Source of the DNA: Mycobacterium dioxanotrophicus
Lineage (GTDB): Bacteria > Actinomycetota > Actinomycetes > Mycobacteriales > Mycobacteriaceae
Assembly: GCF_002157835.1 (NCBI RefSeq)
Contig: NZ_CP020809.1
Span: 3,844,001 to 3,908,000 of the forward strand
Length of the DNA stretch: 64,000 nucleotides
Direction of reading: 5' to 3'
Shown: positions 50,706 through 63,281 of the stretch, piece by piece
Layout: each line of letters opens with the position of its first letter
Position numbering within the stretch: position 1 is the first letter of the stretch
Translations under genes and position numbers: made by a program
The notes under the pieces: model-generated
Told to the model about the DNA's origin: nothing
Database searches by the model: none
What the model saw: only the letters and a program-made list of their open reading frames with translations

Positions 50706-50848
50706 ACCGACACGAGTTGAGGCCATCGCGGCGTCCGGCCTAGGGATGGCCGCAGAAAGCGACCTCTAGCCCGTCACCGGCGTCGACGGCCAGGTCCCCA
50801 ACGGCCGTCCGGGTCCGTGACCGTTATCACTGCGGCTCATTGACGCGG

Positions 50849-50877
50849 TTGACATCACACTCGATCAGGTCCACAAT
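50849..50877 (+). promoter_or_regulatory. Sigma-A-like promoter of the sugar operon
   Basis: TTGACA (50849-50854) is a perfect -35 box. A 17-nt spacer separates it from CACAAT (50872-50877), a 4-of-6 match to the -10 box. It precedes a palindrome at the expected start of transcription and the first gene by about 50 nt. The rest of the 222-bp gap upstream shows no other signal I recognise. Confidence 0.6.
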
Positions 50878-50878
50878 T

Positions 50879-50892
50879 TGATTATCCAATCA
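50879..50892. promoter_or_regulatory. Candidate operator of the sugar operon
   Basis: TGATT-ATCC-AATCA is a perfect inverted repeat immediately downstream of the -10 box in an AT-rich stretch that contrasts with its surroundings. It would overlap the transcription start. The SorC-type regulator encoded in the same operon is the obvious candidate binder. No second copy was noticed in the window. Confidence 0.5.
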
Positions 50893-50927
50893 TAGACGAT
50901 TATTTATTCACTCAACGGAGGCTCTCA

Positions 50928-51740
50928 ATGCCCGACACTGGCGACGCCACATCCCTGTTCCGCGGACATTTCTCCGGCCGGCGGGTCGCGGTCACCGGCT
51001 CAGCGCACGGCATCGGCCACACCATCGCTCGCGGGTTCGCCGAAAACGGCGCGTCGGTCTTCCTGATCGACCGGGACGAGCACGTCACCCAGGCCGTCGA
51101 GACGCTGTGCGCCGACGGATTCGACGCCCTCGGCGCGCAAGCCGACGTGACCGACGAGCACCAGATGGCCGCGGCATTCGACCAAATGGCCTCCACCTGG
51201 GGCAAATTGGACGTGCTGGTCAACAACGCAGGCATCATCACCATCAACGACCTGGAGAACACCAGCCTCGAGGACTTCGAACGGGTTCTGCGCGTCAACA
51301 CGACGGCAATGTTCATCGCCATAAGGGCAGCCGCTCCCCTGCTGCGGACCGCAGGCGGCGGCAGCATCCTCAATGCCGCCAGCGGCCAGGCCCGCCAAGG
51401 CTTCATCTACACACCGTCCTACGCGGCGAGCAAGTTCGGTGTACTTGGGCTGACCCAGTCCTTGGCCAAGGAGCTCGCCAAAGACAACATCCGGGTCAAC
51501 GCCTACTGCCCGGGCATCGTGCACACCGAGATGTGGGAGTACAACGACCGAGAGTGGGGTCGCCGCCTGGGCGACTACAAGCCGGGCGAATTGATCGCAG
51601 AATGGATCGCCGACATCCCGCTGGGCCGGCCTGCTAGCGAAACCGACGTCACGAATCTTGTTCTGTTCCTGGCTTCTTCAGCTGCTGAATACATCACCGG
51701 ACAAGCCGTCAACGTCGACGGCGGCATGTTCATGAGCTGA
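50928..51740 (+). CDS. Short-chain dehydrogenase, probably NAD-dependent polyol oxidoreductase
   Basis: The 270-residue SDR has the coenzyme motif TGSAHGIG at 23-30, Asp at the end of strand 2 (FLIDRD, favouring NAD), NNAG at 99-102, Ser152, and Tyr165/Lys169 in SYAASK. The C-terminus ITGQAVNVDGGMFMS is that of classical sugar-alcohol and diol dehydrogenases. GGAGG at 50917-50921 sits 6 nt before the ATG. It is the first gene of the accessory sugar operon, directly behind the promoter. It most likely oxidises an imported polyol to a ketose; the exact substrate is unknown. Confidence 0.88.
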   Translation: MPDTGDATSLFRGHFSGRRVAVTGSAHGIGHTIARGFAENGASVFLIDRDEHVTQAVETLCADGFDALGAQADVTDEHQMAAAFDQMASTWGKLDVLVNNAGIITINDLENTSLEDFERVLRVNTTAMFIAIRAAAPLLRTAGGGSILNAASGQARQGFIYTPSYAASKFGVLGLTQSLAKELAKDNIRVNAYCPGIVHTEMWEYNDREWGRRLGDYKPGELIAEWIADIPLGRPASETDVTNLVLFLASSAAEYITGQAVNVDGGMFMS

Positions 51741-51785
51741 CAGTTTCTGGTCCCCCACCCGCACAACCCCCGAATCGGAGACACC

Positions 51786-52784
51786 ATGACCAGCGCCATC
51801 GCCACGCCCCCGACGACCAGCCAGTCACCCCGCATCAAAGAGCTGACCAGCAGAGCTCTCGCCGGATCCGGCGGTGCGTTCGCCGGGCTTCTACTGCTGA
51901 TCGTCGCGCTTTCGGTCACCGCACCGAACTTCCTGTCCGCGCGCAACTTCACCAACATCGTCGATCAGGTGACGGTGTTGGGCATCCTGGCGCTGGGCGC
52001 GACGTTCGTCATCATCATCGGCGGCATCGACCTGTCGGTGGGTTCGGTCCTCGCTCTCTCCGGCATTGTGATGGGCTGGTTGTCCCATAACGCAGGCGTA
52101 CCACTGCCAGTCGCAATGCTGGCCGCAATCGTCGTCGGCGGCATCGCCGGCCTGATAAACGGCCTGGGCGTCACCATCTTCAAATTACCCGCGTTCATCG
52201 CGACCTTGGCGATGATGTCGGTGGCCCGGGGCCTGGCCAACCTGATCACCGACGGCCAGCAGATCGTCGGCTATCCCGAGTGGTTCTACAAGCTTTCCAC
52301 CGCAAGGTATTTCGGATTCATCAGTGTCACTGTCGCCGTGCTCGTCATCCTCTACATCGCCGGCTGGATGTTTCTCCGGTATCGCCGGGCGGGTCGCGCC
52401 CTGTATGCCATCGGCGGTGGCCCGGAGGTGGCCCGCCTCGCCGGTCTCAACGTCCGCCGAATCACCACCATGGTGTACGTCACCGCCGGCCTGATGGCGG
52501 GGGTCGGCGCGGTGGTCTTGTCCTCGCGCCTGGATGCCTCCGCCCCCAGCGCGGCAACGGGATACGAACTCGACGTCATCGCCGCAGTCGTGATCGGCGG
52601 GGCCAGCCTGATGGGCGGCACCGGACGAGTTACCGGCACGGTCATCGGTGTGCTCATCATCGGGGTGCTGCGCAACGGCCTGAACCTGCTCGGCGTATCC
52701 CCGTTCATTCAGCAGATCGTCATCGGCTGCGTCATCGCGATCGCTGTCGGAGCAGATGTGCTGCGGCGCAAGAACAATCGGTGA
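51786..52784 (+). CDS. Ribose-class ABC sugar transporter permease
   Basis: The 332-residue permease belongs to the RbsC/AraH (BPD-2) family. It has about 9-10 helices. Conserved segments are LGATFVIIIGGIDLSVGSVL near residue 75, AIVVGGIAGLINGLGVTIF, then LPAFIATLAMMSVARG, and VIGGASLMGGTGRVTG with VLRNGLNLLGVSPFIQQIV near the C-terminus. It pairs with the binding protein that follows by a 4-bp GTGA overlap. A hydrophilic N-terminus of about 35 residues precedes the first helix. Confidence 0.92.
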   Translation: MTSAIATPPTTSQSPRIKELTSRALAGSGGAFAGLLLLIVALSVTAPNFLSARNFTNIVDQVTVLGILALGATFVIIIGGIDLSVGSVLALSGIVMGWLSHNAGVPLPVAMLAAIVVGGIAGLINGLGVTIFKLPAFIATLAMMSVARGLANLITDGQQIVGYPEWFYKLSTARYFGFISVTVAVLVILYIAGWMFLRYRRAGRALYAIGGGPEVARLAGLNVRRITTMVYVTAGLMAGVGAVVLSSRLDASAPSAATGYELDVIAAVVIGGASLMGGTGRVTGTVIGVLIIGVLRNGLNLLGVSPFIQQIVIGCVIAIAVGADVLRRKNNR

Positions 52785-53737
52785 TCGCCATGACCCGACG
52801 CATCCTCGCCGCACTTGCCACGCTGATCGTGACACTGGCACTGTGCACCGGCTGCAAGACGTTGCTGAACAACAACAGTGACGGCCGTCCGACGATCGGC
52901 CTCGCAGTCGCCAACCAGCAAGCCGACTTCTTCAACATGATCCGGCAAGCCGTTCAGGCCGCCGCTGACGAGGCCGGATTCCGCGTTGTGGTGGCCGATG
53001 CCAAAGGCGACGGCGATACTCAAGTCAGCCAGGTGCAGAACTTCATCACCCAGAACGTGGACGCCATCATCTACATCCCGGCGGGCGCCACCGCCGCGAC
53101 CGTGCCGGTGCGCGATGCCAAGGCGGCAGGCATCCCGATCATCGCCGTCGACCGCAACCCGGCAGGCGCACCCGCCGACACCTTCATCGCCACCGACAGT
53201 GTCGCCGCGGCGAAGCAACTCGGCCAGTACGTAATCGACATCACCAACGGCAAGGCCAACATCGGCGTCATTCAGGGCCAGATCGGCACCACCCCTGAAC
53301 AGGCCCGCGACCAGGGTTTCAGCGAAGCACTCAAGACAGCACCGGGGATGCATGAAGTCGCCCGCCAGGCGTCCCAGCAGTGGTCACAGAGCGAAGGCTT
53401 CGACATCACCACCGACATGCTCCAGGCCCATCCCGACATCACAGTGCTGTTCGGTCGGGCGGACGCCCTGGCGCTGGGGGCGGCGTCCGCCGCACGCGCC
53501 GCCGGACGCCCGGACATCAAGGTCGTCGGATTCGACGGGGACATCGCCGGGCTCAAGGCGGTCAGCGATGGCCAGCTGGCCGCGACGATCACCCAGCCCA
53601 CGTTCGCGATCGGTCGACTGGCCGTGAAATCGGCGCGCGAGCTGATCGACAAGCAAGCAGTGCCCGCCGAACAGCTGCAAAAGGGCGTGCTGACGACCCG
53701 CGAGAATGCTGCCCACTTCCTCGAACAGCACCCCTGA
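52781..53737 (+). CDS. Ribose-class periplasmic sugar-binding lipoprotein
   Basis: The 318-residue protein is a peripla_BP_4 (RbsB-like) binding protein. The N-terminus is a lipoprotein signal (LAALATLIVTLALCTGCKTL); the likely acylated cysteine is that of CTGC, although the -3 residue is not the usual Leu. The mature part has GLAVANQQADFFNMIRQAVQ, then QVQNFITQNVDAIIYIPAGA, IIAVDRNPAGAP and VVGFDGDIAGLKAVSDGQLA. GTG 52781 overlaps the permease stop; ATG 52790 is an alternative start. It determines the sugar taken up by this operon. Confidence 0.92.
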   Translation: MIAMTRRILAALATLIVTLALCTGCKTLLNNNSDGRPTIGLAVANQQADFFNMIRQAVQAAADEAGFRVVVADAKGDGDTQVSQVQNFITQNVDAIIYIPAGATAATVPVRDAKAAGIPIIAVDRNPAGAPADTFIATDSVAAAKQLGQYVIDITNGKANIGVIQGQIGTTPEQARDQGFSEALKTAPGMHEVARQASQQWSQSEGFDITTDMLQAHPDITVLFGRADALALGAASAARAAGRPDIKVVGFDGDIAGLKAVSDGQLAATITQPTFAIGRLAVKSARELIDKQAVPAEQLQKGVLTTRENAAHFLEQHP

Positions 53738-53763
53738 ACCGACGAAAGTTTCTGGAGCACATC

Positions 53764-55245
53764 ATGACTGAGAAATCAACACTGGTGGTCACCGGAGTCG
53801 CCAAACACTACCCCGGCACCATCGCGCTCGACGGCGTCGACCTCACCGTCGGACCCGGCCAGGTCATCGCCCTGCTTGGGGAGAACGGCGCGGGCAAGTC
53901 GACCCTGTCGAGCATCATCGCCGGGTCCACGACACCGACTGCGGGCAGCATGACCTGGGGCGGACAGCCCTACGCGCCCACCTCGCCTCGAGATGCCATC
54001 GACGCGGGTATCGGCATGATCCATCAGGAGATGCGGCTGCTGCCGGAGCTCAGCGTCGCCGAGAACGTGATGGTCGGCCGGTGGCCCATGCGTGGGGGCC
54101 GGGTATCGCAGGCAGAGATGGCCCGCGAAGCCAAGAAACATCTCGACCGGCTCGGTTTCACCGGACGGATGAACCAGCTCGTCGGCGAACTGAGCGTGGC
54201 AGGCCAGCAACAGGTCGAGATCGCCAAGGCGCTCGCACTACGCGCACGACTACTGGTCCTCGACGAACCCACAGCTGCCCTGGGCCAGGACGAGACCGAT
54301 GCGCTTTTCGCCACCGTGGACGCGCTGCGCCAGGAAGGTGTCTCGTTCATCTACGTGAGCCACCGGCTCGCCGAGATCGCCCGGATCGCCGACCGCATCG
54401 TGGTCCTGCGCGACGGACACAAGATCAGCGAACACGCCAGCGGCCAGGTGCCACCAGACCAGCTGGTCCGCGAGATGGTGGGACGTCCGGTGGACCGCCT
54501 GTTTCCCGACACGGCCGACCCTTCGGACCGGGTGGTGCTCTCGGTTCGCGAACTATCCTCCCCCACAGGTCGATTCGTCGACATCTCGTTCGACGTGCAC
54601 GCCGGTGAGATCTTCGGTATCGCCGGTATCGTCGGCGCCGGAAGGACCGAGATCGTGCGCGCGATCGCTGGAGCAGACTCCTACTCCAGCGGTACCGTCA
54701 CCCTCGACGGCAGGACGGTCAAGCCCGGGTTGCGCGCGGCTATCGACGCCGGGATCGTCCTGGTCCCAGAAGACCGCAAACAGCAGGGTCTCATCGTCTC
54801 CGACACCATCGAGGACAACATCGCGCTGCCGAATCTCGACAGTGTGCAGCGCCAGGGTTGGGTCGCACCGAAAACCGTGCGCACATTGGGTATCGAAGTC
54901 GGTAAGCGTCTCGGCATCAAAGGCAGACCGGACAATCCGGTCTCGTCGCTGTCCGGCGGCAACCAACAAAAGGTCGTGCTCGGCAAATGGCTCCAGCGCA
55001 ATCCCCGCTTGGTCATCCTCGACGAGCCGACCCGCGGGATCGATGTCGGCGCCCGCTCGGCCATCTATGAACTCATCGCCGAGCTGACGAAAGCAGGTAC
55101 TGCCGTGATCGTGGTCAGCTCCGACCTCGACGAAATCCTCGGACTTTCCCACCGTGTCATGGTTCTGGCCCGGGGCCGCTGCCAAGGAATGCTCGACGGC
55201 GAAGGGCTCACCGGCCCCGCCGTGATGGAAATGGCGGTCCGCTGA
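53764..55245 (+). CDS. Ribose-class ABC sugar transporter ATPase (two fused nucleotide-binding domains)
   Basis: The 493-residue protein has two ABC domains like RbsA/XylG/AraG. Domain 1 has Walker A GENGAGKSTLSSII and Walker B LLVLDEPTAALGQDE with a degenerate signature LSVAGQQQVE. Domain 2 has a degenerate Walker A GIVGAGRTEIVRA and the canonical LSGGNQQKVVLGKWL and VILDEPTRGID. This asymmetry is standard for the family. A GGAG site precedes the ATG, 26 nt after the binding protein. Its stop overlaps the next gene (TGATG). Confidence 0.94.
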   Translation: MTEKSTLVVTGVAKHYPGTIALDGVDLTVGPGQVIALLGENGAGKSTLSSIIAGSTTPTAGSMTWGGQPYAPTSPRDAIDAGIGMIHQEMRLLPELSVAENVMVGRWPMRGGRVSQAEMAREAKKHLDRLGFTGRMNQLVGELSVAGQQQVEIAKALALRARLLVLDEPTAALGQDETDALFATVDALRQEGVSFIYVSHRLAEIARIADRIVVLRDGHKISEHASGQVPPDQLVREMVGRPVDRLFPDTADPSDRVVLSVRELSSPTGRFVDISFDVHAGEIFGIAGIVGAGRTEIVRAIAGADSYSSGTVTLDGRTVKPGLRAAIDAGIVLVPEDRKQQGLIVSDTIEDNIALPNLDSVQRQGWVAPKTVRTLGIEVGKRLGIKGRPDNPVSSLSGGNQQKVVLGKWLQRNPRLVILDEPTRGIDVGARSAIYELIAELTKAGTAVIVVSSDLDEILGLSHRVMVLARGRCQGMLDGEGLTGPAVMEMAVR

Positions 55246-56006
55246 TGCCCGGCTTTGATCTCAGCGGTCGGGTCGCGCTGATCACCGGTGGTGCCAGCGG
55301 AATCGGTCGGGCCATCGCTTTCGCCGTCGCCGAGCACGGCGCAGACGTCGCTGTTCTTGACCTGCCGGGCGCCGATGCCACTGCAACCCTTGAGGGCCTG
55401 ACGGCACGCGGGTCGCGGGCCGTCTTCACGCCGGCCAGCGTGGAATCGGCCGAACAGCTGCGCGACGCTGTCGCCCAGACAGAATCTGAATTGGGTCCGC
55501 TGACGCTGGCGGTCAACGCCGCAGGAATCGCCAATGCCTGCCCCGCGGAGGACATGCCGGTAGAGCAATGGCAGCGGGTGTACTCGATCGACGCAACCGG
55601 GGTGTTCCTAAGCTGCCAAGCCGAGGCAAATGCGATGTTGCGCAACGGCACAGGATCAATCGTCAACATCTCTTCGATGTCGGGCACCATCGTCAACCGG
55701 GGTCTGTTCCAGTGCCACTACAACAGCGCAAAAGCCGCAGTCACCCACCTTTCGAAATCGCTCGCCATGGAATGGGCGACGCGCGGTATCCGGGTCAACT
55801 CACTAAGCCCGGGTTACACCGCCACTCCGATGAACACCCGACCCGAGATGGTCGACAGCATGGCGGTGTTCGCCTCCGAGACACCCATGCAGCGCATCGC
55901 CGACCCGGCCGAAATGGGCGGGCCCGCAGTGTTTCTGCTTTCTGACGCGGCCAGCTTCGTCACCGGCATCGACCTGCTGGTCGACGGCGGATTCTGCGCC
56001 CAGTAA
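55245..56006 (+). CDS. Second short-chain dehydrogenase of the sugar operon
   Basis: The 253-residue SDR carries TGGASGIG at 14-21, Asp39 after strand 2 (VAVLDLPGAD, NAD preference), NAAG at 91-94, the catalytic Ser144 region ISSMSG, and Tyr159/Lys163 in YNSAK. The C-terminus is VTGIDLLVDGGFCAQ. It is closer to D-arabinitol/xylulose-reductase-like SDRs than the first one. With two SDRs in one operon, two stereochemical forms or two successive oxidations are possible. It overlaps the ATPase stop as TGATG. Confidence 0.87.
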   Translation: MPGFDLSGRVALITGGASGIGRAIAFAVAEHGADVAVLDLPGADATATLEGLTARGSRAVFTPASVESAEQLRDAVAQTESELGPLTLAVNAAGIANACPAEDMPVEQWQRVYSIDATGVFLSCQAEANAMLRNGTGSIVNISSMSGTIVNRGLFQCHYNSAKAAVTHLSKSLAMEWATRGIRVNSLSPGYTATPMNTRPEMVDSMAVFASETPMQRIADPAEMGGPAVFLLSDAASFVTGIDLLVDGGFCAQ

Positions 56007-56032
56007 TCCCGAACCCCAATGAAGGAAGAAAG

Positions 56033-56938
56033 ATGACGCAAACAGTTCAACCATCGCAACTCAGCGTCGACCGCGCTGCCGCCGAGGCTTATCTGGCGAA
56101 GATGCAGAAACATCGGGTCATGCCGCCCGAACAACTCGCACCGGTGCTTGCCGATATCGCAACAGGCATTCGACGTGACATTGTCCGAACGATCCAGCAG
56201 GCCGGAATCGGCCATATCGGCGGCGACTTGTCGGTTACCGACATCCTCGTCGCCGCCTACTGGGGTGCCATGTCGGTCAATCCACTCGATCCCAACGACC
56301 CGAACCGAGACAGGTTCATCCTCAGCAAGGGGCACTGCGCCGCCGCGCTCTACTCGACTCTGGCATCGGCCGGCTTCTTTCCGCACGACGCCCTCAGCAC
56401 ATTCGCCAAGCCGCTGTCGGCTCTCAACGGCCACCCCAATCGGGTGAAAGTGCCTGGCGTGGAGACCAATACCGGACCCCTGGGGCATGGGTTTCCGGTG
56501 GCCACCGGATGTGCGTTGGGCGCCAAACTCAGTGGCGCCGACTACCGCACCATCGTCGTGATGGGTGACGGGGAGATGCAGGAGGGTAGCAACTGGGAGG
56601 CAGCGATGACTGCGGCGCACTACGGCCTTGCCTCCCTCACTGCGATCGTCGACCGTAACCGGCTCCAGCAGGGCGACCGCACCGAAGAGACCAAAACCCT
56701 TGAGCCCCTGCATGACAAGTGGACTAGCTTCGGCTTCGAGACACGTCGCATCGACGGCCACGACCATCGGGCGCTGCTGGAGGCGCTCGGTCCGTCCACA
56801 ACCGGCAAACCGGTGGCGATTGTCGCCGACACCATCAAAGGCAAGGGCGTTTCCTTCATCGAAGATCGCGTCGAATGGCACCACAAGGTGCCGAGCGACG
56901 ACCAAGTTCAAGCCGCACTCGAGGAGCTCTCCGCATGA
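56033..56938 (+). CDS. Split transketolase, N-terminal (TPP-binding) subunit
   Basis: The 301-residue protein matches the first half of a transketolase. It has GHIGGDLSVTDILVAAYWG at 60-78, SKGHCAAALYS at 98-108, NTGPLGHGFPVATGCALGAK near 146-165, and the TPP motif MGDGEMQEGSNWEAAM with VDRNRLQ. The C2-transfer active site needs the second subunit, encoded next with a 4-bp overlap. Split transketolases of this kind occur in specialised sugar pathways, such as apulose-4-phosphate transketolase. A GAAGGAAGAAAG site precedes the ATG. Confidence 0.92.
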   Translation: MTQTVQPSQLSVDRAAAEAYLAKMQKHRVMPPEQLAPVLADIATGIRRDIVRTIQQAGIGHIGGDLSVTDILVAAYWGAMSVNPLDPNDPNRDRFILSKGHCAAALYSTLASAGFFPHDALSTFAKPLSALNGHPNRVKVPGVETNTGPLGHGFPVATGCALGAKLSGADYRTIVVMGDGEMQEGSNWEAAMTAAHYGLASLTAIVDRNRLQQGDRTEETKTLEPLHDKWTSFGFETRRIDGHDHRALLEALGPSTTGKPVAIVADTIKGKGVSFIEDRVEWHHKVPSDDQVQAALEELSA

Positions 56939-57894
56939 CCACCGTGACCACCGACGCGCCCACCTTCGACTGCCGTGCCGATTTCGCCGATGAACTGGCT
57001 GCGCTCGCCCGTGCCGACGAGCGAATCGTCGCGGTCTGCAACGACTCCGTCGGTTCCAGCAACCTGGTGAAGTTCCGGGAGGAGTTCCCCGACCGTCTGA
57101 TCAACGTCGGTATCGCCGAGCAGGATCTGGTCGGTGTCGGTGCAGGCCTGGCCAATGCCGGCAGGATCCCGTTCGTCTGCGCTGCCGCACCGTTCTTGAC
57201 CGGACGTGCGACCGAACAGATCAAGGCCGACGTGGCCTACAGCCAGCGTCATGTGGTGCTGTGCGGGCAGAGTCCGGGCATGGCCTACGGCGAGCTCGGC
57301 CCGACCCACCATTCCATCGAGGACTTGTCCTGGATGCGTGCGGTGTCCGGACTGCCAGTGGTGGTTCCGGCCGACGGCGCGCAGACCCGCGCCGCCGTGC
57401 GTTGGGCCGTCGAGCACGGCAAGGGCTCCTACCTGCGCATCCCGCGCTTCAAGGTGCCTGCGATCAGCGATCCGGCAGATACGTTCGCCTTCGGACGGGC
57501 CGTCATCGCCCGACCGGGCAACGACGTAACCATCATCGCCATCGGCACGATGGTCTCACGCGCCCTGTGGGCCGCTGATCAGCTTGCCGCCGAAGGTGTT
57601 TCGGCACGCGTACTGAACATGGCGTTCGTTGAGCCGCTCGATGAGGCAGCCGTGCTGGCCGCAGCGCGGGAGACCGCGGGCATCGTCACCGTCGAGGAGA
57701 GCATCGTCAGCGGAGGCCTCGGGGCCGCAGTGGCATCCCTGGTGTCGCAGTCACATCCATCACGGATGCGGATTCTCGGCGTGCCCGGATTCGCTCCGAC
57801 CGGGGATGCGGCGTTCCTACTGGACTATTTCAATCTCAACGCCGACGGCATCGCCGACGCAGCCCGTAGTGTGATTCACGATGGCCGCGCCTAG
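56935..57894 (+). CDS. Split transketolase, C-terminal subunit
   Basis: The 319-residue protein holds the pyrimidine-binding and C-terminal domains. The TPP-activating glutamate is Glu62 in NVGIAEQDLVGVGAGLA. GELGPTHHSIEDLSWMRAV is the second conserved block, and DVTIIAIGTMVSRALWAADQ begins the C-terminal domain. The ATG overlaps the N-terminal subunit by 4 bp, so equal expression is expected. The sizes (301+319) add up to near a single transketolase less the linker. The ketose donor cannot be read from sequence. Confidence 0.92.
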   Translation: MTTVTTDAPTFDCRADFADELAALARADERIVAVCNDSVGSSNLVKFREEFPDRLINVGIAEQDLVGVGAGLANAGRIPFVCAAAPFLTGRATEQIKADVAYSQRHVVLCGQSPGMAYGELGPTHHSIEDLSWMRAVSGLPVVVPADGAQTRAAVRWAVEHGKGSYLRIPRFKVPAISDPADTFAFGRAVIARPGNDVTIIAIGTMVSRALWAADQLAAEGVSARVLNMAFVEPLDEAAVLAAARETAGIVTVEESIVSGGLGAAVASLVSQSHPSRMRILGVPGFAPTGDAAFLLDYFNLNADGIADAARSVIHDGRA

Positions 57895-59380
57895 CAGCTT
57901 CATCCTCGCGATCGATCAGGGCACCAGCTCGACCAAGGCGATGCTGGTGGACAGCCGGGGTGCGGTGTTCCGCACCGCCAGTGTGGCATTGAGCCAGGTG
58001 CACCCTAATCCCGGTTGGGTCGAACAGAGTGCAGGCGAGATCTGGGCGAGCATCACTCGGTCGGTCCGCGACTGCGTCACCGACGAGATCGCGCCGGCCG
58101 TGGTGGGGGTGGCATTGAGCGTGCAGCGTGAGACGGTTGCGATGTGGGACACCAACACCGGTGACACCATCGGGCCGATCCTCAGCTGGCAGGATCAACG
58201 CACCGCCGCGGCAGCCGCCCGGATCGAGGATGACGGGCATGCCCCGTATATCTTCGATACCACCGGCTTGCCGCTGGATCCGATGTTCTCGGCACTCAAG
58301 GCGTCCTGGCTGCTCGATGAATACGATCCGCTCCGCACCCGCGCCAAGTCGGGCCGCTGGCGCGTAGGCACGATCGACGCCTGGATCCTCTCGCGGTTCG
58401 GCGGCGAGCCGGTGACCGAGGCCGGGAACGCCTCGCGCACCCAGTTGCTCGATATCACCACCCGTACCTGGGATGAAGCTCTGCTCAACATCTTCGGGGT
58501 TCCCCGCGAGGCACTTCCCACGGTGGTGGCCTCGACCGGTCCGTTCCCGGGCGTGCGTGATCTGGATCCGCTGCCCGACGGTGTGCCGGTGCTTGCGGTG
58601 CTGGCCGATTCGCATGCCGCCTTGTTCGCCCACGCCGGCTGGCGTCCGGGGGTGGTGAAGGCCACCTACGGCACCGGCAGCTCGGTGATGGCGTTGGGGC
58701 CCAGGCCTGCGGCGTCCACCGGGGTGTGCTCGACGATCGCTTGGGATGTCGACGGCACCGCCCATGCCTTGGAAGCCAACATCCGCTCCACCGGGAAAAC
58801 CATGTCCTGGTTGGCGGACTTGTTCAACGTTGACATCGACACACTCTGGGACGAAGCCACCACCGCGACGAGCGACGGGGTTGCAGTGGTGCCGGCCTTC
58901 GGAGGGCTCGGCGCACCGCATTGGGACCGCGACGCCACGCCGGTCATCGCTGGGCTGTCGCTTGGCACTCGCAGACCGCAACTGGCCCGAGCCGCGATGG
59001 AGGCCATTGCCTTCCAGATCGACGACGTGGTGGCTGCTTTCGAGACCGTGACCGGTCCGTTGGCGCAACTGCGGTGCGACGGCGGCATGACGAAATCGCG
59101 GGCGTTGATGCAACTGCAATCCGATGTCAGCGCACTGCCGGTAGCGATCTCGTCGACCGCGAACCTCTCGGCCATGGGTGCCGCGCACCTGGCCGGTTTG
59201 CGTCTGGGCTGGTGGACGGCTGCTCAGCTGGAAACCGGCCTGCCCGGGTCCGGCGAATCCGCTCTCGAGCTGGCACCTGCCATAACCGACGACGACCGCC
59301 AGGCGCGACGCCGCGCCTGGGCGGAGGCGGTCGCACGGACCAGGGCTCGCGTTGACCCTACGATTGAGGCGAATGTCTAG
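57881..59380 (+). CDS. FGGY-family carbohydrate kinase
   Basis: The 499-residue kinase has AIDQGTSSTKAMLVD at its N-terminus, HPNPGWVEQSAGEIW near 41-55, SWQDQRT near 102-108, and the catalytic Asp244 in LADSHAALF. The second-domain ATP site is TYGTGSSVMALGP, with CDGGMTKSRALMQLQSDV near the end. It resembles glycerol kinases and ketose (xylulose/apulose) kinases, and operon context favours a ketose. It overlaps the transketolase gene by 14 bp in another frame and lacks a clear ribosome-binding site, so translation is likely coupled. Confidence 0.92.
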   Translation: MAAPSSFILAIDQGTSSTKAMLVDSRGAVFRTASVALSQVHPNPGWVEQSAGEIWASITRSVRDCVTDEIAPAVVGVALSVQRETVAMWDTNTGDTIGPILSWQDQRTAAAAARIEDDGHAPYIFDTTGLPLDPMFSALKASWLLDEYDPLRTRAKSGRWRVGTIDAWILSRFGGEPVTEAGNASRTQLLDITTRTWDEALLNIFGVPREALPTVVASTGPFPGVRDLDPLPDGVPVLAVLADSHAALFAHAGWRPGVVKATYGTGSSVMALGPRPAASTGVCSTIAWDVDGTAHALEANIRSTGKTMSWLADLFNVDIDTLWDEATTATSDGVAVVPAFGGLGAPHWDRDATPVIAGLSLGTRRPQLARAAMEAIAFQIDDVVAAFETVTGPLAQLRCDGGMTKSRALMQLQSDVSALPVAISSTANLSAMGAAHLAGLRLGWWTAAQLETGLPGSGESALELAPAITDDDRQARRRAWAEAVARTRARVDPTIEANV

Positions 59381-59416
59381 TCTCTGATGACTCTGTACGC
59401 ATGGGAGGAGGCCGTG

Positions 59417-60394
59417 GTGACGCGCAGTACCCGCCGTCCACCCGGCGACGATCAGTCGCGTCTCATGGTCAAAGTCGCCCGGCTGTATCACGAACGCGGC
59501 CAGAAGCAGGCGCAGATCGCCGAGGCTCTCGGAATCACCCAGGTGCGGGTGTCGCGTTTGCTCCGGCGCGCGGTCGACGTCGGCGTCGTCAAGACGGTCG
59601 TAGTCTCCCCGCCTGGCGTCCACACCGAGTTGGAGGACCAGCTCCAAGACCGGTTCGGCCTCAACGAAGCGGTTGTCGTCGATGTGATGAGCACCGACGA
59701 ACGCGACATCGCACAAAATCTGGGCGCCGCGGCCGCGGCCTACCTCGACAACACTCTGTTGGGGGACGAAGTCCTTGGTATCTCGTCATGGAGCGCGAAC
59801 CTGCTGGCCGCAGCAACCTTCCTCCGCCCGACCAGCAGCCCGGTGGTCAGCGATGTCGTGCAGTTGGTCGGCGGCGTTGGGGATCCGCAGGTCCAGATCG
59901 AGGCCAACAGGCTGCTGACCACCTTCGCAGCCGCCACTGGAGCCACCCCGATCTTCCTGCCCGCACCCGGCCTGCTCGGCACCGCTGACGCCCGCCGAAG
60001 CCTGATGTCCGACCCGGCAGTGCAACAAGTGACTGCTCGCTGGGCGGAGCTGACCACCGCACTGGTCGGTATCGGAGCTCTGGAGCCGTCACCTTTGCTG
60101 GCCCAGAGCGGAAACAGCATCGCGGCGGCCGACCAGGACACCCTGCGAAAGCTTGGCGCGGTCGGTGACATCTGTCTGCGGTTCTTCGACGAGTCCGGCC
60201 GGCTAGTGGCTTCCGACCTGGACGACAGGGTGATGGGCATCGAACCCGAGCAGCTGATGACCGTGCCGCGACGGATCGGTGTGGCCGGGGGCACGCGCAA
60301 GCTTTCCGCACTACGCGGCGTGCTGCAGGGCGGATGGATCAACGTACTGGTCACCGACATCACCGCGGCGCGCCATCTACTCGGTACCCAGTGA
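59417..60394 (+). CDS. SorC/DeoR-family sugar-responsive regulator
   Basis: The 325-residue protein has an N-terminal helix-turn-helix (QKQAQIAEALGITQVRVSRL) and a SorC-type sugar-phosphate-binding domain. The latter shows GDEVLGISSWSANLLAAATF, then VVQLVGGVGDPQVQIEANRL, and RRIGVAGGTRKLSALRGVL at the end. GTG 59417 follows GGAGGAGG (59404-59411) at good spacing; the earlier ATG 59387 has no such site. It most likely binds the palindrome at 50879-50892 and responds to a phosphorylated pathway intermediate. Both points are inference. Confidence 0.88.
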   Translation: MTRSTRRPPGDDQSRLMVKVARLYHERGQKQAQIAEALGITQVRVSRLLRRAVDVGVVKTVVVSPPGVHTELEDQLQDRFGLNEAVVVDVMSTDERDIAQNLGAAAAAYLDNTLLGDEVLGISSWSANLLAAATFLRPTSSPVVSDVVQLVGGVGDPQVQIEANRLLTTFAAATGATPIFLPAPGLLGTADARRSLMSDPAVQQVTARWAELTTALVGIGALEPSPLLAQSGNSIAAADQDTLRKLGAVGDICLRFFDESGRLVASDLDDRVMGIEPEQLMTVPRRIGVAGGTRKLSALRGVLQGGWINVLVTDITAARHLLGTQ

Positions 60395-60415
60395 CGGTGC
60401 GATAGCGTCATCGGC

Positions 60416-60868
60416 ATGACTGAGGCAGCCACCCAGATCGCGTTCGTTCAGGCCACCTGGCACCGCAATATCGTCGACCAGGCACGCCACGGCTTCACCG
60501 ACAAAATCCAAACCCTCGGTGTCACCGAAAACGAACTCGAATACTTCGAAGTACCGGGCGCCTTCGAAATCCCCTTGACCGCAAAACGTCTCGCGCTCAC
60601 CGGGCGCTATCGCGCCATCGTCGCCGCCGCCCTGGTGGTCGACGGGGGGATCTATCGCCACGAATTCGTGGCCACCGCGGTGATCGACGGACTCATGCGG
60701 GTGCAACTCGACACCGACGTGCCGGTGTTCTCCGTGGTGCTGACTCCGCACCATTTCCACGAGCATGACGAGCACGTCGGCTATTTCACGAAGCATTTCG
60801 TGCAGAAGGGCGCCGAGGCCGCCAGTGCAGTAACTACCACCCTGGAGCTTCACGCCTCGCTGAGGTAG
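60416..60868 (+). CDS. ribH2: RibH2-type lumazine synthase paralogue, last gene of the sugar operon
   Basis: The 150-residue protein has the lumazine synthase fold: AFVQATWHRNIVDQAR, then VPGAFEIPLTAKRLALTGRY, and GGIYRHEFVATAVIDGLMRV with the catalytic histidine. It differs from the housekeeping RibH in this window by VVLTPHHFHEHDEHVGYFTK, where that protein has [13 protein letters not shown]. The VLTPHHFHE block is characteristic of the RibH2 group known from Brucella and rhizobia. It begins 21 nt after the regulator, so it is part of the operon, and converges on ribG. Whether it makes lumazine or works on a pathway ketose phosphate is open. Confidence 0.88.
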   Translation: MTEAATQIAFVQATWHRNIVDQARHGFTDKIQTLGVTENELEYFEVPGAFEIPLTAKRLALTGRYRAIVAAALVVDGGIYRHEFVATAVIDGLMRVQLDTDVPVFSVVLTPHHFHEHDEHVGYFTKHFVQKGAEAASAVTTTLELHASLR

Positions 60869-60882
60869 TCCAACCGCACCGC

Positions 60883-61893
60883 TCAGCCTGGTACGAGACT
60901 CAGCAGCACGTCCGGGCCGATCGGTTCGACCCCGTCGAAGCGCCAGCGCTGGGCATGGGCGATGCTGAGCACGCCGACATCGTCGACCGCAGTGATCGGG
61001 CCGCCCAACAGAATCGGTGCCACATAGGCGATGATCCGGTCGACCGCACCGGCCCGCAGGAACGCGCCGGCCAACGTCGGCCCACCCTCCAACAGCACAT
61101 CGGTGCGGTCGGCGAGGAACTTGATCACTTCGTGCGGGTCATGGGTACGAATCACCATCGTGCGCGAATCATCGTTGAGCACTTTGGCTTCCGACGACAC
61201 CTCGCGATACCCGACCACGACGCGCAGGGGCTGGTGCTCGGCGAGGCTGCCGTCGGCCAGGCGCGCCGTGAGCGCCGGATCATCGGCGAACACCGTGCCG
61301 GTGCCGACCACGATGGCATCGATCACCGCACGCCTGCGGTGCACGTCCGCGCGCGCCGCCGGGCTGGTGATCCACTGGCTGGATCCGTCGGCTGCGGCGC
61401 TGCGACCATCCACGCTGGTGGCGAACTTCCAGGTGACGTGCGGCAGACCCGTGCGCTGTTTGTGCAGCCATTCGCGCAGCGGACCACGCGTGACCTCGTC
61501 GGTCAGCACGCCGGGCACCACCTCGATACCCGCATCGGCCAGCCGTGCCGCACCGCCGGCAGCCACCTCGTTGGGATCGGAGACGGCGTACACCACTCTC
61601 GAAACACCAGCTGCCACAAGCGCATCTACGCACGGCGGGGTACGGCCGTGGTGATTGCACGGTTCCAGGGTGACCACCGCGGTGCCGCCGAGCGCCCGCT
61701 GCCCGGCCCGGCGCAACGCCATCACCTCGGCGTGCGGCCCGCTGGGCGGCTGGGTGGCGCCCACCCCGGCGACCTGACCGTCGCGGTCGACGATGACCGC
61801 GCCGACGGGCGGGTTGGGATAGGTCGTGCCCTTGACCCCGTTGGCCTGCTCGACCGCCAGGCGCATCATGGCGTCGGTCGTCGGTGTGGTCAT
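60883..61893 (-). CDS. ribG: Bifunctional riboflavin deaminase/reductase RibG (RibD)
   Basis: RibG (336 aa) performs the deaminase and reductase steps of riboflavin synthesis. The zinc deaminase motif HAEVMALRRAGQRALGGTAV with CNHHGRTPPCVDAL supplies His and Cys ligands. The reductase half has SVDGRSAAADGSSQWITSP and LLEGGPTLAGAFLRAGAVDR. ATG 61893 overlaps the rsmB stop by 4 bp. In M. tuberculosis rpe lies between these two genes; here it is absent. Confidence 0.94.
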   Translation of the reverse strand: MTTPTTDAMMRLAVEQANGVKGTTYPNPPVGAVIVDRDGQVAGVGATQPPSGPHAEVMALRRAGQRALGGTAVVTLEPCNHHGRTPPCVDALVAAGVSRVVYAVSDPNEVAAGGAARLADAGIEVVPGVLTDEVTRGPLREWLHKQRTGLPHVTWKFATSVDGRSAAADGSSQWITSPAARADVHRRRAVIDAIVVGTGTVFADDPALTARLADGSLAEHQPLRVVVGYREVSSEAKVLNDDSRTMVIRTHDPHEVIKFLADRTDVLLEGGPTLAGAFLRAGAVDRIIAYVAPILLGGPITAVDDVGVLSIAHAQRWRFDGVEPIGPDVLLSLVPG

Positions 61894-63281
61894 CGCACCC
61901 TCAGGGCCGCGGCGAACATCGCGTCGGTGCCGTGCTGGTGTGGCCACAATTGCACGTACGGCCCGGCGCCGAGGTCGTCGGCCGGGGCGAACAGTTCGCG
62001 GGTGTCCAGCGCGGTCACAGGCTGCCGGCGCAGCGCATCGGCCACCACCCCGACCGTCTCGGCCAGGTGCGGGGAACAGGTTGCGTAGAGCACCACCCCG
62101 CCGGGGCGGGTCAGCTTGATGGCCGCGGCCAGCAGCTCCTTCTGCAGTTTCGCCAGGCCGGGCACATCGCCGGGGGCGCGCCGCCAGCGGGCTTCCGGAC
62201 GGCGCCGCAGCGCACCGAGGCCGGTGCAGGGTGCGTCGACCAGCACCCGGTCGAAGCCCGGGGTGAGGCCCGATTCGCGGCCGTCCACCCGGTGCACGTC
62301 GACGCCCAGGCCGCGGGTGTTCTCCTCGACCAGATCAGCGCGGCGCTCCCCCGGCTCGACGGCGGTGATCCTGGCGCCCGAGGCCGTCCCCATCGCGGCC
62401 AGCAGCGCGGTCTTGCCACCCGGTCCGGCACACAGATCCAGCCACCGACCGGTGTCCGGCCCGTCGAGCGCGGCCAGCGTCAAAGCCCGGGCCACCAACT
62501 GGCTGCCCTCGTCCTGAACCTGGGCGCCGCCGTCGCGCACCGCACTGAGCCGCCCCGGATCGCCGCCGGGCAGATACACCGCGTACGGCGAGTACTTGCC
62601 GACGGTGCCGCCGGACTGCTCGGCGAGAGCATCGGCCGTCAACACGCCGGGCCGGGCCGCCAGATGCACCAGTGGGCGCTCGTCGTCGCTGGTCAGCAGG
62701 GCGTCGAGTTCACTGGCCCGTGCACCGAGCGCGTCGGTGAACGCCTGGGCGATCCAGCGTGGATGGGCATGGACGAACGCCGCGTGCCCGACCGGGTCGG
62801 TGTCCGCCGCCGGGGCCAGCTCGTCGGTCCAGGCCTGCTCGTCGCGCGAGGAGATGGTGCGCATCACCCCGTTGACGAAACCCGCTCGGGCCGTGTCGAA
62901 TTCGATACCGGCCTGGTCGACGGTGGTGGACACCGCGGCGTGCGGCTCGACCCGCGTGCGCAGTAATTGGTAGGCACCTAGCCGCAGCAGATCGAGCAAC
63001 ACGGGATCGATGCGATCGGTGGGCCGCCCGGACGCCTTTTCGATCACCGCGTCGAGCAGACCGCGGGCCCGGCAGGCGCCGTAGGTCAGTTCGGTGGCGA
63101 AAGCGGCGTCCCGGCCTTCGATCTTGCGTTCGGTCAGCAGTGCGGGCAGTGCCAGGTTGGCGTACGCATCGCGTTCGGACACCGCGCGCAGCACATCGAA
63201 CGCCGCGCGGCGCGCCGGGTCCAGCGGCGTGCGTCGCGGCTGACGCTTGCGTTGCGGTGGCCGCTTGTCGGGGCGCGTCAT
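61890..63281 (-). CDS. rsmB: 16S rRNA m5C methyltransferase RsmB (Fmu/Sun)
   Basis: The 463-residue enzyme methylates C967 of 16S rRNA with SAM. A NusB-like N-terminal domain ([20 protein letters not shown], then [15 protein letters not shown]) precedes the methyltransferase. The SAM site is [18 protein letters not shown], and the two catalytic cysteines are in [18 protein letters not shown] and [19 protein letters not shown] basic N-terminal tail ([13 protein letters not shown]) is typical. Its ATG overlaps the fmt stop. Confidence 0.95.

Follow-up and report, generated by a model that had tools for sequence, protein, structure and literature searches.

What does an operon that joins a two-subunit transketolase to two dehydrogenases break down, and why does it carry a gene for riboflavin synthesis? 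The question is raised by ten genes in a 64,000-nt stretch of Mycobacterium dioxanotrophicus contig NZ_CP020809.1 (the window, in whose positions coordinates are given). All ten are encoded on the + strand, from 50928 to 60868, and several neighbors overlap by a few bases. In order, they encode a short-chain dehydrogenase/reductase (SDR1), the permease, binding lipoprotein and double ATPase of an ATP-binding cassette (ABC) importer, a second SDR (SDR2), the N- and C-terminal subunits of a transketolase, an FGGY kinase, a SorC regulator and a RibH2-type lumazine synthase (Table 1). Open reading frames and family scans back each name, so the co-directional block of the initial annotation, RibH2 included, stands as described; only its start, 50849, falls upstream of the first reading frame. 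We conclude that the operon is probably a horizontally acquired pathway for the catabolism of the branched plant pentose D-apiose and/or the polyol apiitol, with RibH2 as a proposed backup for riboflavin synthesis.

The lead to apiose comes from the enzymes. Carter et al. are said to have described in 2018 a transketolase route of D-apiose degradation that runs through ApsI, AplK and AptAB. An apiose cluster of E. coli ST131/STc14 and E. fergusonii lacks apsI and has two putative oxidoreductases instead, according to PMC13001218; D-apiose supported growth of those carriers that were tested but not of K-12, and the authors hypothesize that the oxidoreductases stand in for apsI. In E. coli SE15, this cluster runs SDR, SDR, permease, ATPase, DUF2291, binding protein, kinase and regulator, with the transketolase pair divergent. 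The window proteins are 59% (SDR2), 49% (SDR1), 39% over 98% (kinase, to aplK), 48% and 36% (transketolase subunits, to aptA and aptB) and 37.5% (regulator) identical to their SE15 counterparts. When E. coli ECSF_RS02670 was searched against the M. dioxanotrophicus genome, SDR2 was the best of 75 matches (59%, against 44% for the next); with ECSF_RS02675, SDR1 was the best of 54 (50% against 40%). As best matches in one search direction, SDR1 and SDR2 are the predicted orthologues of the two SE15 oxidoreductases. The YxxxK motif is kept in both, and both have an Asp at the end of beta-2, which the E. coli orthologue of SDR1 lacks. Asp at this position is the usual rule for NAD preference, and the sequences suggest that SDR1 and SDR2 of the window use NAD.

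To survey relatives, we searched with the N-terminal half of the transketolase, taking one genome per species, and obtained 251 relatives, of which the best 80 loci were analyzed at about 19 kb each. Loci with the window's importer and SDR1 and/or SDR2 were called type A, and those with a xylose-isomerase-like TIM-barrel gene (detected by tblastn) type B. Among these best 80 of 251 loci, 30 were type A and 42 type B; two combined the isomerase with SDR1, and six were unclassified. Because 30 of the best 80 transketolase relatives share the importer together with SDR1 and/or SDR2, the co-occurrence of the gene set is not due to chance, and the recurrence that the initial annotation had proposed to look for around the split transketolase is borne out. 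Of the 30 type A loci, 27 have both SDR genes, and SDR2 lies just past the edge of a 28th (L014); for L013 and L021 the count covers the locus as first read. The isomerase is absent from every type A locus, as is the type A permease from all 44 isomerase loci, a separation that partly follows from how the types were defined. The M. dioxanotrophicus insert has no isomerase gene either: searched with the type B isomerase, the genome gave a best match of 27% identity, which lies elsewhere. Since ApsI is missing from it, the operon cannot be filed as the canonical isomerase pathway.

The type B loci have features of their own. In 21 of the 42, a DUF2291 protein accompanies a second importer. The SE15 importer is of the type B kind (permease 54% and binding protein 45% identical to those of L005), and family scans found no DUF2291 among the ten window genes. 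The SE15 binding protein is close to PDB 5ibq/4ry0 (270 bits), the first of which was presumably solved with apiose; that of the window is more distant (118 bits). Twenty of the 42 type B loci have an Apiosidase (5 loci), Sde182_NH-like (12) or IU_nuc_hydro-like (8) gene. Proteins of the latter two families (e.g., L005:6223-7821 and L042:613-1605) could represent a new kind of apiose-releasing hydrolase. In Streptomyces coeruleorubidus (L014, L129), a second transketolase pair followed by kinase and SDR2 genes, with a regulator gene on the opposite strand, lies downstream of a first transketolase-SDR1-importer set.

We then compared the shared enzymes of the two types. Besides the window, the 80 rows of the transketolase tree were 29 loci of type A, 42 of type B, 2 mixed and 6 unclassified ones; the type A locus L027 was left out on coverage. 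The window and Mycolicibacterium agri (L004) fall within a 13-row branch whose other members are 11 type B loci (Shimodaira-Hasegawa-like approximate likelihood ratio test [SH-aLRT] 99), and the tree requires at least four changes between the types. A single clade of all type A rows was rejected by the approximately unbiased (AU) test (p-AU 5e-11), as was one of the 15 actinobacterial type A rows (p-AU 2.5e-52). In both transketolase subunits, the kinase and the regulator, no alignment column separates A from B (≥80% in each). The tree, the AU test and the lack of type-specific positions rule out type A as a single lineage with its own transketolase substrate. Given the mixed tree and the absence of separating columns, the transketolase, kinase and regulator most likely meet the same compounds in both types, and the SDR pair and the isomerase are, by this comparison, interchangeable entries to one transketolase route. 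The tree, the positions and the SE15 orthology together lend good support to the initial annotation's lead, an apulose-4-phosphate transketolase route in which SDRs take the place of the isomerase. Its choice of substrate, a branched or linear sugar alcohol, narrows to a branched one (apiitol) or to apiose.

In the apulose route as generally known, apulose-4-phosphate gives rise to dihydroxyacetone phosphate (DHAP) and xylulose-5-phosphate. In the operon, the ABC importer would bring in apiose or apiitol. SDR2 would reduce apiose to apiitol and SDR1 would oxidize apiitol at C2 to apulose, so that the pair would do the isomerase's job, with no net redox change should NAD(H) serve both. The FGGY kinase would convert apulose to apulose-4-phosphate, and the split transketolase would pass a C2 unit of this compound to glyceraldehyde-3-phosphate to form the two products of the apulose route. 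The SorC protein would sense a pathway intermediate. RibH2, and in relatives RibB, the 3,4-dihydroxy-2-butanone-4-phosphate (DHBP) synthase, would back up riboflavin synthesis, with apulose-4-phosphate possibly inhibiting DHBP synthase and/or competing in lumazine synthase.

Gene neighborhoods are consistent with parts of this route. The two Pseudactinotalea loci with an isomerase and SDR1 (67% to window SDR1) have no SDR2 (L042, L049), which suggests the proposed role of SDR1 (apiitol to apulose) and the use of both apiose and apiitol by these loci. L042 also has a GH2 beta-galactosidase-like gene upstream. A tpiA gene lies by SDR2 in L059, L066, L081 and L134 and 3' of the kinase gene in the isomerase-type L152; tkt, fsa and tpiA lie by the operon on Sinorhizobium meliloti pRM41A (L136); and an Arthrobacter locus is flanked by tkt, transaldolase and triose-phosphate isomerase genes and, at its opposite end, by rpiB. 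These neighbors fit DHAP and xylulose-5-phosphate as products. For an operon found repeatedly in actinomycetes, in rhizobia and on agrobacterial plasmids, the apulose reading supplies a likely substrate class.

The locus comparison brought out a second recurrence, that of riboflavin genes, which the initial annotation had no means of seeing although it named RibH2. RibB and/or RibH2 occur within about 19 kb in 13 of the 30 type A loci: RibB in L004, L059, L062, L064, L066, L067 and L081, and cut at the locus edge in L055, L063, L072, L078 and L080 (full-length in extended reads of L055 and L080), and RibH2 in L004, L055, L063, L080 and L082. In the 29 type A genomes searched whole, linkage of RibB or RibH was found in 12, where gene number and genome size predict 0.24; the 12 represent about five lineages and are not independent. 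An Agrobacterium-type transketolase was present in 88 plasmid records, and in 54 of the 60 that were listed, the listing also gives a RibB at a distance of 5.6-7.3 kb from it. Two of the other six were read: the plasmid-borne ribB of S. meliloti Rm41 is on pRM41A (L136), at the edge of the stretch read, and the P. qamdonense plasmid has no RibB within 9 kb. Among the top 60 plasmid RibB rows, six had no listed transketolase row; the three of these that were read all lie by isomerase-type operons with an apiose-type importer (L151, L152, L154).

Of 11 alphaproteobacterial loci examined, 9 have a flavin mononucleotide (FMN) riboswitch ahead of RibB (L059, L064, L066, L081, L132, L134, L151, L152 and L154), three of which are the isomerase-type plasmid operons just mentioned; one also precedes RibH2 in L082. 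None was found in L004, L055, L063, L080, L128, L062 or L067, and positions 40000-64000 of the window gave neither this nor any other Rfam match at gathering score. A degenerate linked RibB can be set aside: the RExEGD and GHTEA motifs, which carry weight for DHBP synthase, are kept in all 13 linked copies aligned. DHBP synthase contacts are named in PMC12268802.

Chemical likeness offers an explanation for the linkage. Apulose-4-phosphate, HOCH2-CO-C(OH)(CH2OH)-CH2-OPO3, shares its carbonyl, tertiary alcohol and hydroxymethyl groups with phosphonothrixin, CH3-CO-C(OH)(CH2OH)-CH2-PO3, from which it differs by an extra C1 hydroxyl and by a phosphate ester in place of the phosphonate. A second resemblance is to DHBP, on which RibH acts, and apulose-4-phosphate is also close to a branched intermediate of DHBP synthase. 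Given these likenesses, apulose-4-phosphate could plausibly inhibit RibB and RibH, and the linked RibB or RibH2 could plausibly be a guard. PMC12268802 describes phosphonothrixin (2-hydroxy-2-[hydroxymethyl]-3-oxobutylphosphonic acid) as a competitive inhibitor of Arabidopsis DHBP synthase (Ki 16.6 uM), chosen for its likeness to a proposed intermediate of the enzyme; it binds the metals of the fungal enzyme via its carbonyl, tertiary alcohol and primary alcohol oxygens. By analogy, we propose tentatively, as an idea falling a little short of probable, that growth through apulose-4-phosphate would poison the cell's own vitamin B2 synthesis and that the adjoining RibB and RibH2 would act as a guard, whichever front end supplies the apulose. 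If so, the recurrent "extra" ribB and ribH2 genes would gain a function, apiose-rich plant niches would be places of metabolic attack on vitamin B2 synthesis, and sugar catabolism would be tied to riboflavin in a testable way, through an intermediate like a natural herbicide against DHBP synthase.

It is quite possible that the linkage has another cause, such as extra flavin for secretion to plants, the use of abundant ribulose-5-phosphate or hitch-hiking. Many of the linked loci belong to plant-associated rhizobia, and separate flavin-secretion modules are argued for Sinorhizobium in PMC9478397, which also states that no second RibB was found in S. meliloti Rm1021. Such causes fare less well with the recurrence of the linkage in soil actinomycetes, with RibH2 alone and in differing arrangements, and with a plasmid RibB that accompanies the operon with either front end. 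The guard proposal faces difficulties of its own. Only 2 of the 42 type B loci show linkage (L053, with RibB directly 3' of the regulator gene, and L035, with a RibB/RibH pair upstream), although all should make apulose-4-phosphate. Among 13 loci read from a class-level sample, three are linked (a divergent RibH2 in L138, RibB 3' of the regulator gene in L150 and a RibB/RibH pair in L141), and the stretches read of the E. coli SE15 and Deinococcus gobiensis clusters contain no riboflavin gene. The isomerase-type plasmid operons L151, L152 and L154 were chosen for high RibB rank, as three of six such rows. For the Rhizobiaceae loci L059 and L066, as for L062, no RibB other than the linked one turned up in the genome, and ordinary gene order might therefore account for their linkage. 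Finally, the stereochemistry of apulose-4-phosphate may not match that of phosphonothrixin.

As to the substrate, several points weigh against our reading of apiose and/or apiitol as the compound taken up. PMC13001218 documents growth and not the role of the oxidoreductases. The window importer resembles that of SE15 only distantly (permease 38%, binding protein 28%), so the substrate may be another compound that yields apulose. Apiosidase, Sde182_NH-like and IU_nuc_hydro-like genes are absent from all 30 type A loci, and a second SDR is unnecessary if apiitol itself is imported. The type B TIM-barrel gene, a putative ApsI judged from its context, scores far under xylose isomerase cut-offs. 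Pantoea plasmids encode an approximately 59% relative of it, and in the one stretch read (Pantoea sp. At-9b, L153:9983-10975) this gene lies by pckA with no transketolase or kinase gene within 10 kb. Thirteen of the 20 other class-sample matches were read, and 12 have the isomerase and none is a further type A locus.

Some of these points would suit a pathway in which apiitol is the sole import, SDR1 makes apulose and SDR2 serves a second stereoisomer or an accessory step. The importer unlike that of the E. coli apiose cluster and the missing sugar-releasing genes speak for it, as do the Pseudactinotalea loci, which do without SDR2; since apulose has no chirality, it would be reached from D-apiitol and L-apiitol alike. 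We nevertheless think this rather unlikely, as SDR2 is kept in nearly every type A locus and the same SDR pair goes with an apiose-type importer in the cluster of D-apiose growers (PMC13001218). Another branched polyol, such as 2-C-methylerythritol, could on chemical reasoning be handled by the same enzyme classes to give xylulose-5-phosphate and hydroxyacetone phosphate. It is a very improbable substrate: no position separates the kinase and transketolase from those of isomerase operons, some of which have apiosidases, and the tpiA genes beside relatives fit DHAP, not hydroxyacetone phosphate. A tetritol (erythritol or threitol) operon, which the rpiB and tpiA-like genes of known tetritol loci might bring to mind, is rejected as highly unlikely in view of the Arthrobacter RpiB (203.6 against a cut-off of 168.2 for actinobacterial ribose-5-phosphate isomerase, but 68.4 against 240 for D-erythrulose-4-phosphate isomerase), of both SDRs falling below the GolD/DthD cut-off (180.7 and 190.8 versus 286) and of the orthology to the apiose cluster.

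How the operon reached this genome is suggested by its surroundings. It is a horizontally acquired insert of about 10 kb, as judged from gene order. Upstream lie an LprG-type lipoprotein gene, a major facilitator superfamily (MFS) gene, which we take to be P55-like, and an FtsX/ABC pair; downstream are ribD, rsmB and, on the opposite strand, a formyltransferase gene. Of 15 relatives read at ribD, four have the close ABC-ribD spacing given in Table 1; P55 lies within approximately 90 bases of ribD in five and 0.3-1.1 kb away in four, and neither gene was seen within 1.5 kb in two. SDR1 and RibH2 have no match at ribD in any of the 15. The transketolase was found at E ≤ 1e-70 in 1 of 198 sampled genomes of the genus, M. 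dioxanotrophicus itself, and in the class-level sample in 21 of 394, M. dioxanotrophicus counted. The nearest relative seen, M. agri (78% in the transketolase N subunit), has the same genes rearranged, with RibH2 and RibB both adjoining, and no ribD, rsmB, P55 or FtsX/ABC match within 18.9 kb. G+C content is 0.64-0.65 in four 2-kb windows at 50-58 kb and 0.66-0.72 in the remaining ones. No tRNA was found in the 64-kb window; in Rhizobium sp. NFR07, a selenocysteine tRNA match lies upstream of the operon (L081:1460-1551).

The insert boundary encloses RibH2, which rules it out as a stray neighbor from the host rib cluster. RibH2 scores 246.1 bits against NF009084 (cut-off 160), consistent with its family assignment, and its nearest solved relative is PDB 1t13 (174 bits), which, like 1di0, we take to be Brucella RibH2. 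Counted over the whole genome, DHBP-synthase matches number seven and lumazine synthases three; close to the third of the latter (C1:328109) are genes for a TetR regulator and for an alpha/beta hydrolase. The ribD-rsmB gap measures 649-819 bases in all 15 relatives and is missing from the window (61890-61947); in M. tuberculosis it is presumably occupied by rpe. The sole rpe match in the M. dioxanotrophicus genome is at C1:733374-733958, approximately 3 kb from a second transketolase match (C1:729932).

Table 1. The insert and its ten genes in the M. dioxanotrophicus window
Feature	Position	Strand	Remarks
Insert between ABC-transporter gene and ribD	50706..60882		ABC gene-ribD gap of 5-24 bases in 4 of 15 relatives
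SDR1	50928..51740	+	Predicted orthologue of E. coli SE15 ECSF_RS02675; proposed apiitol 2-dehydrogenase (apiitol to apulose)
ABC permease, ribose/carbohydrate uptake transporter 2 (CUT2) class, type A importer	51786..52784	+	Pfam PF02653 (BPD_transp_2)
Substrate-binding lipoprotein	52790 or 52781..53737	+	Pfam PF13407 (Peripla_BP_4); lipobox-like stretch in translation
Double-domain ABC ATPase	~53764..55245	+	PF00005 twice; scanned from 53737, start inferred from translation
SDR2	55245..56006	+	Predicted orthologue of E. coli SE15 ECSF_RS02670; proposed apiose reductase (apiose to apiitol); NF004774 397 bits (cut-off 360)
Transketolase N-terminal (thiamine diphosphate [ThDP]) subunit, AptA-like	56033..56938	+	Pfam PF00456
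Transketolase C-terminal (pyrimidine/C) subunit, AptB-like	56935..57894	+	Pfam PF02779, PF02780
FGGY kinase, AplK-like, proposed apulose kinase	57881..59380	+	PF00370/PF02782; glycerol-kinase-like, below GlpK cut-off
SorC/DeoR-type sugar-binding regulator	59387..60394	+	Pfam PF04198
RibH2-type lumazine synthase	60416..60868	+	21 bases 3' of regulator gene; inside insert

The initial annotation had held both the substrate and the gene combination to be unassigned. That no longer applies in full, as the cluster in PMC13001218 has orthologous SDRs and its carriers grow on D-apiose; its importer differs from that of the window, so either apiose or apiitol may be the form taken up here. In a literature search that left most subscription papers outside its scope, apulose and transketolase were not found together, a single paper pairing apiose with transketolase proved relevant, and apiitol and dehydrogenase were found together only in the context of seagrass cell walls.

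Among solved structures, PDB 6yak (258 bits to the transketolase N half) is a split transketolase whose N-terminal half is likewise a separate chain, and no result here ties it to the apulose route. With the ApsI-AplK-AptAB route, the operon appears to share the FGGY kinase and the split transketolase; it differs in having no isomerase, two SDRs, an importer of another subfamily and an attached RibH2. The sugar-binding regulator and a CUT2-class importer are also found in the E. coli apiose cluster. The isomerase-less cluster of Escherichia comes closest, with an orthologous SDR pair, kinase, split transketolase and regulator, whereas its importer is of the DUF2291 type and the stretch read holds no riboflavin gene. 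Collectively, these comparisons place the M. dioxanotrophicus operon as a variant of the apulose-4-phosphate transketolase route, of which the recurrent riboflavin genes are the new part.

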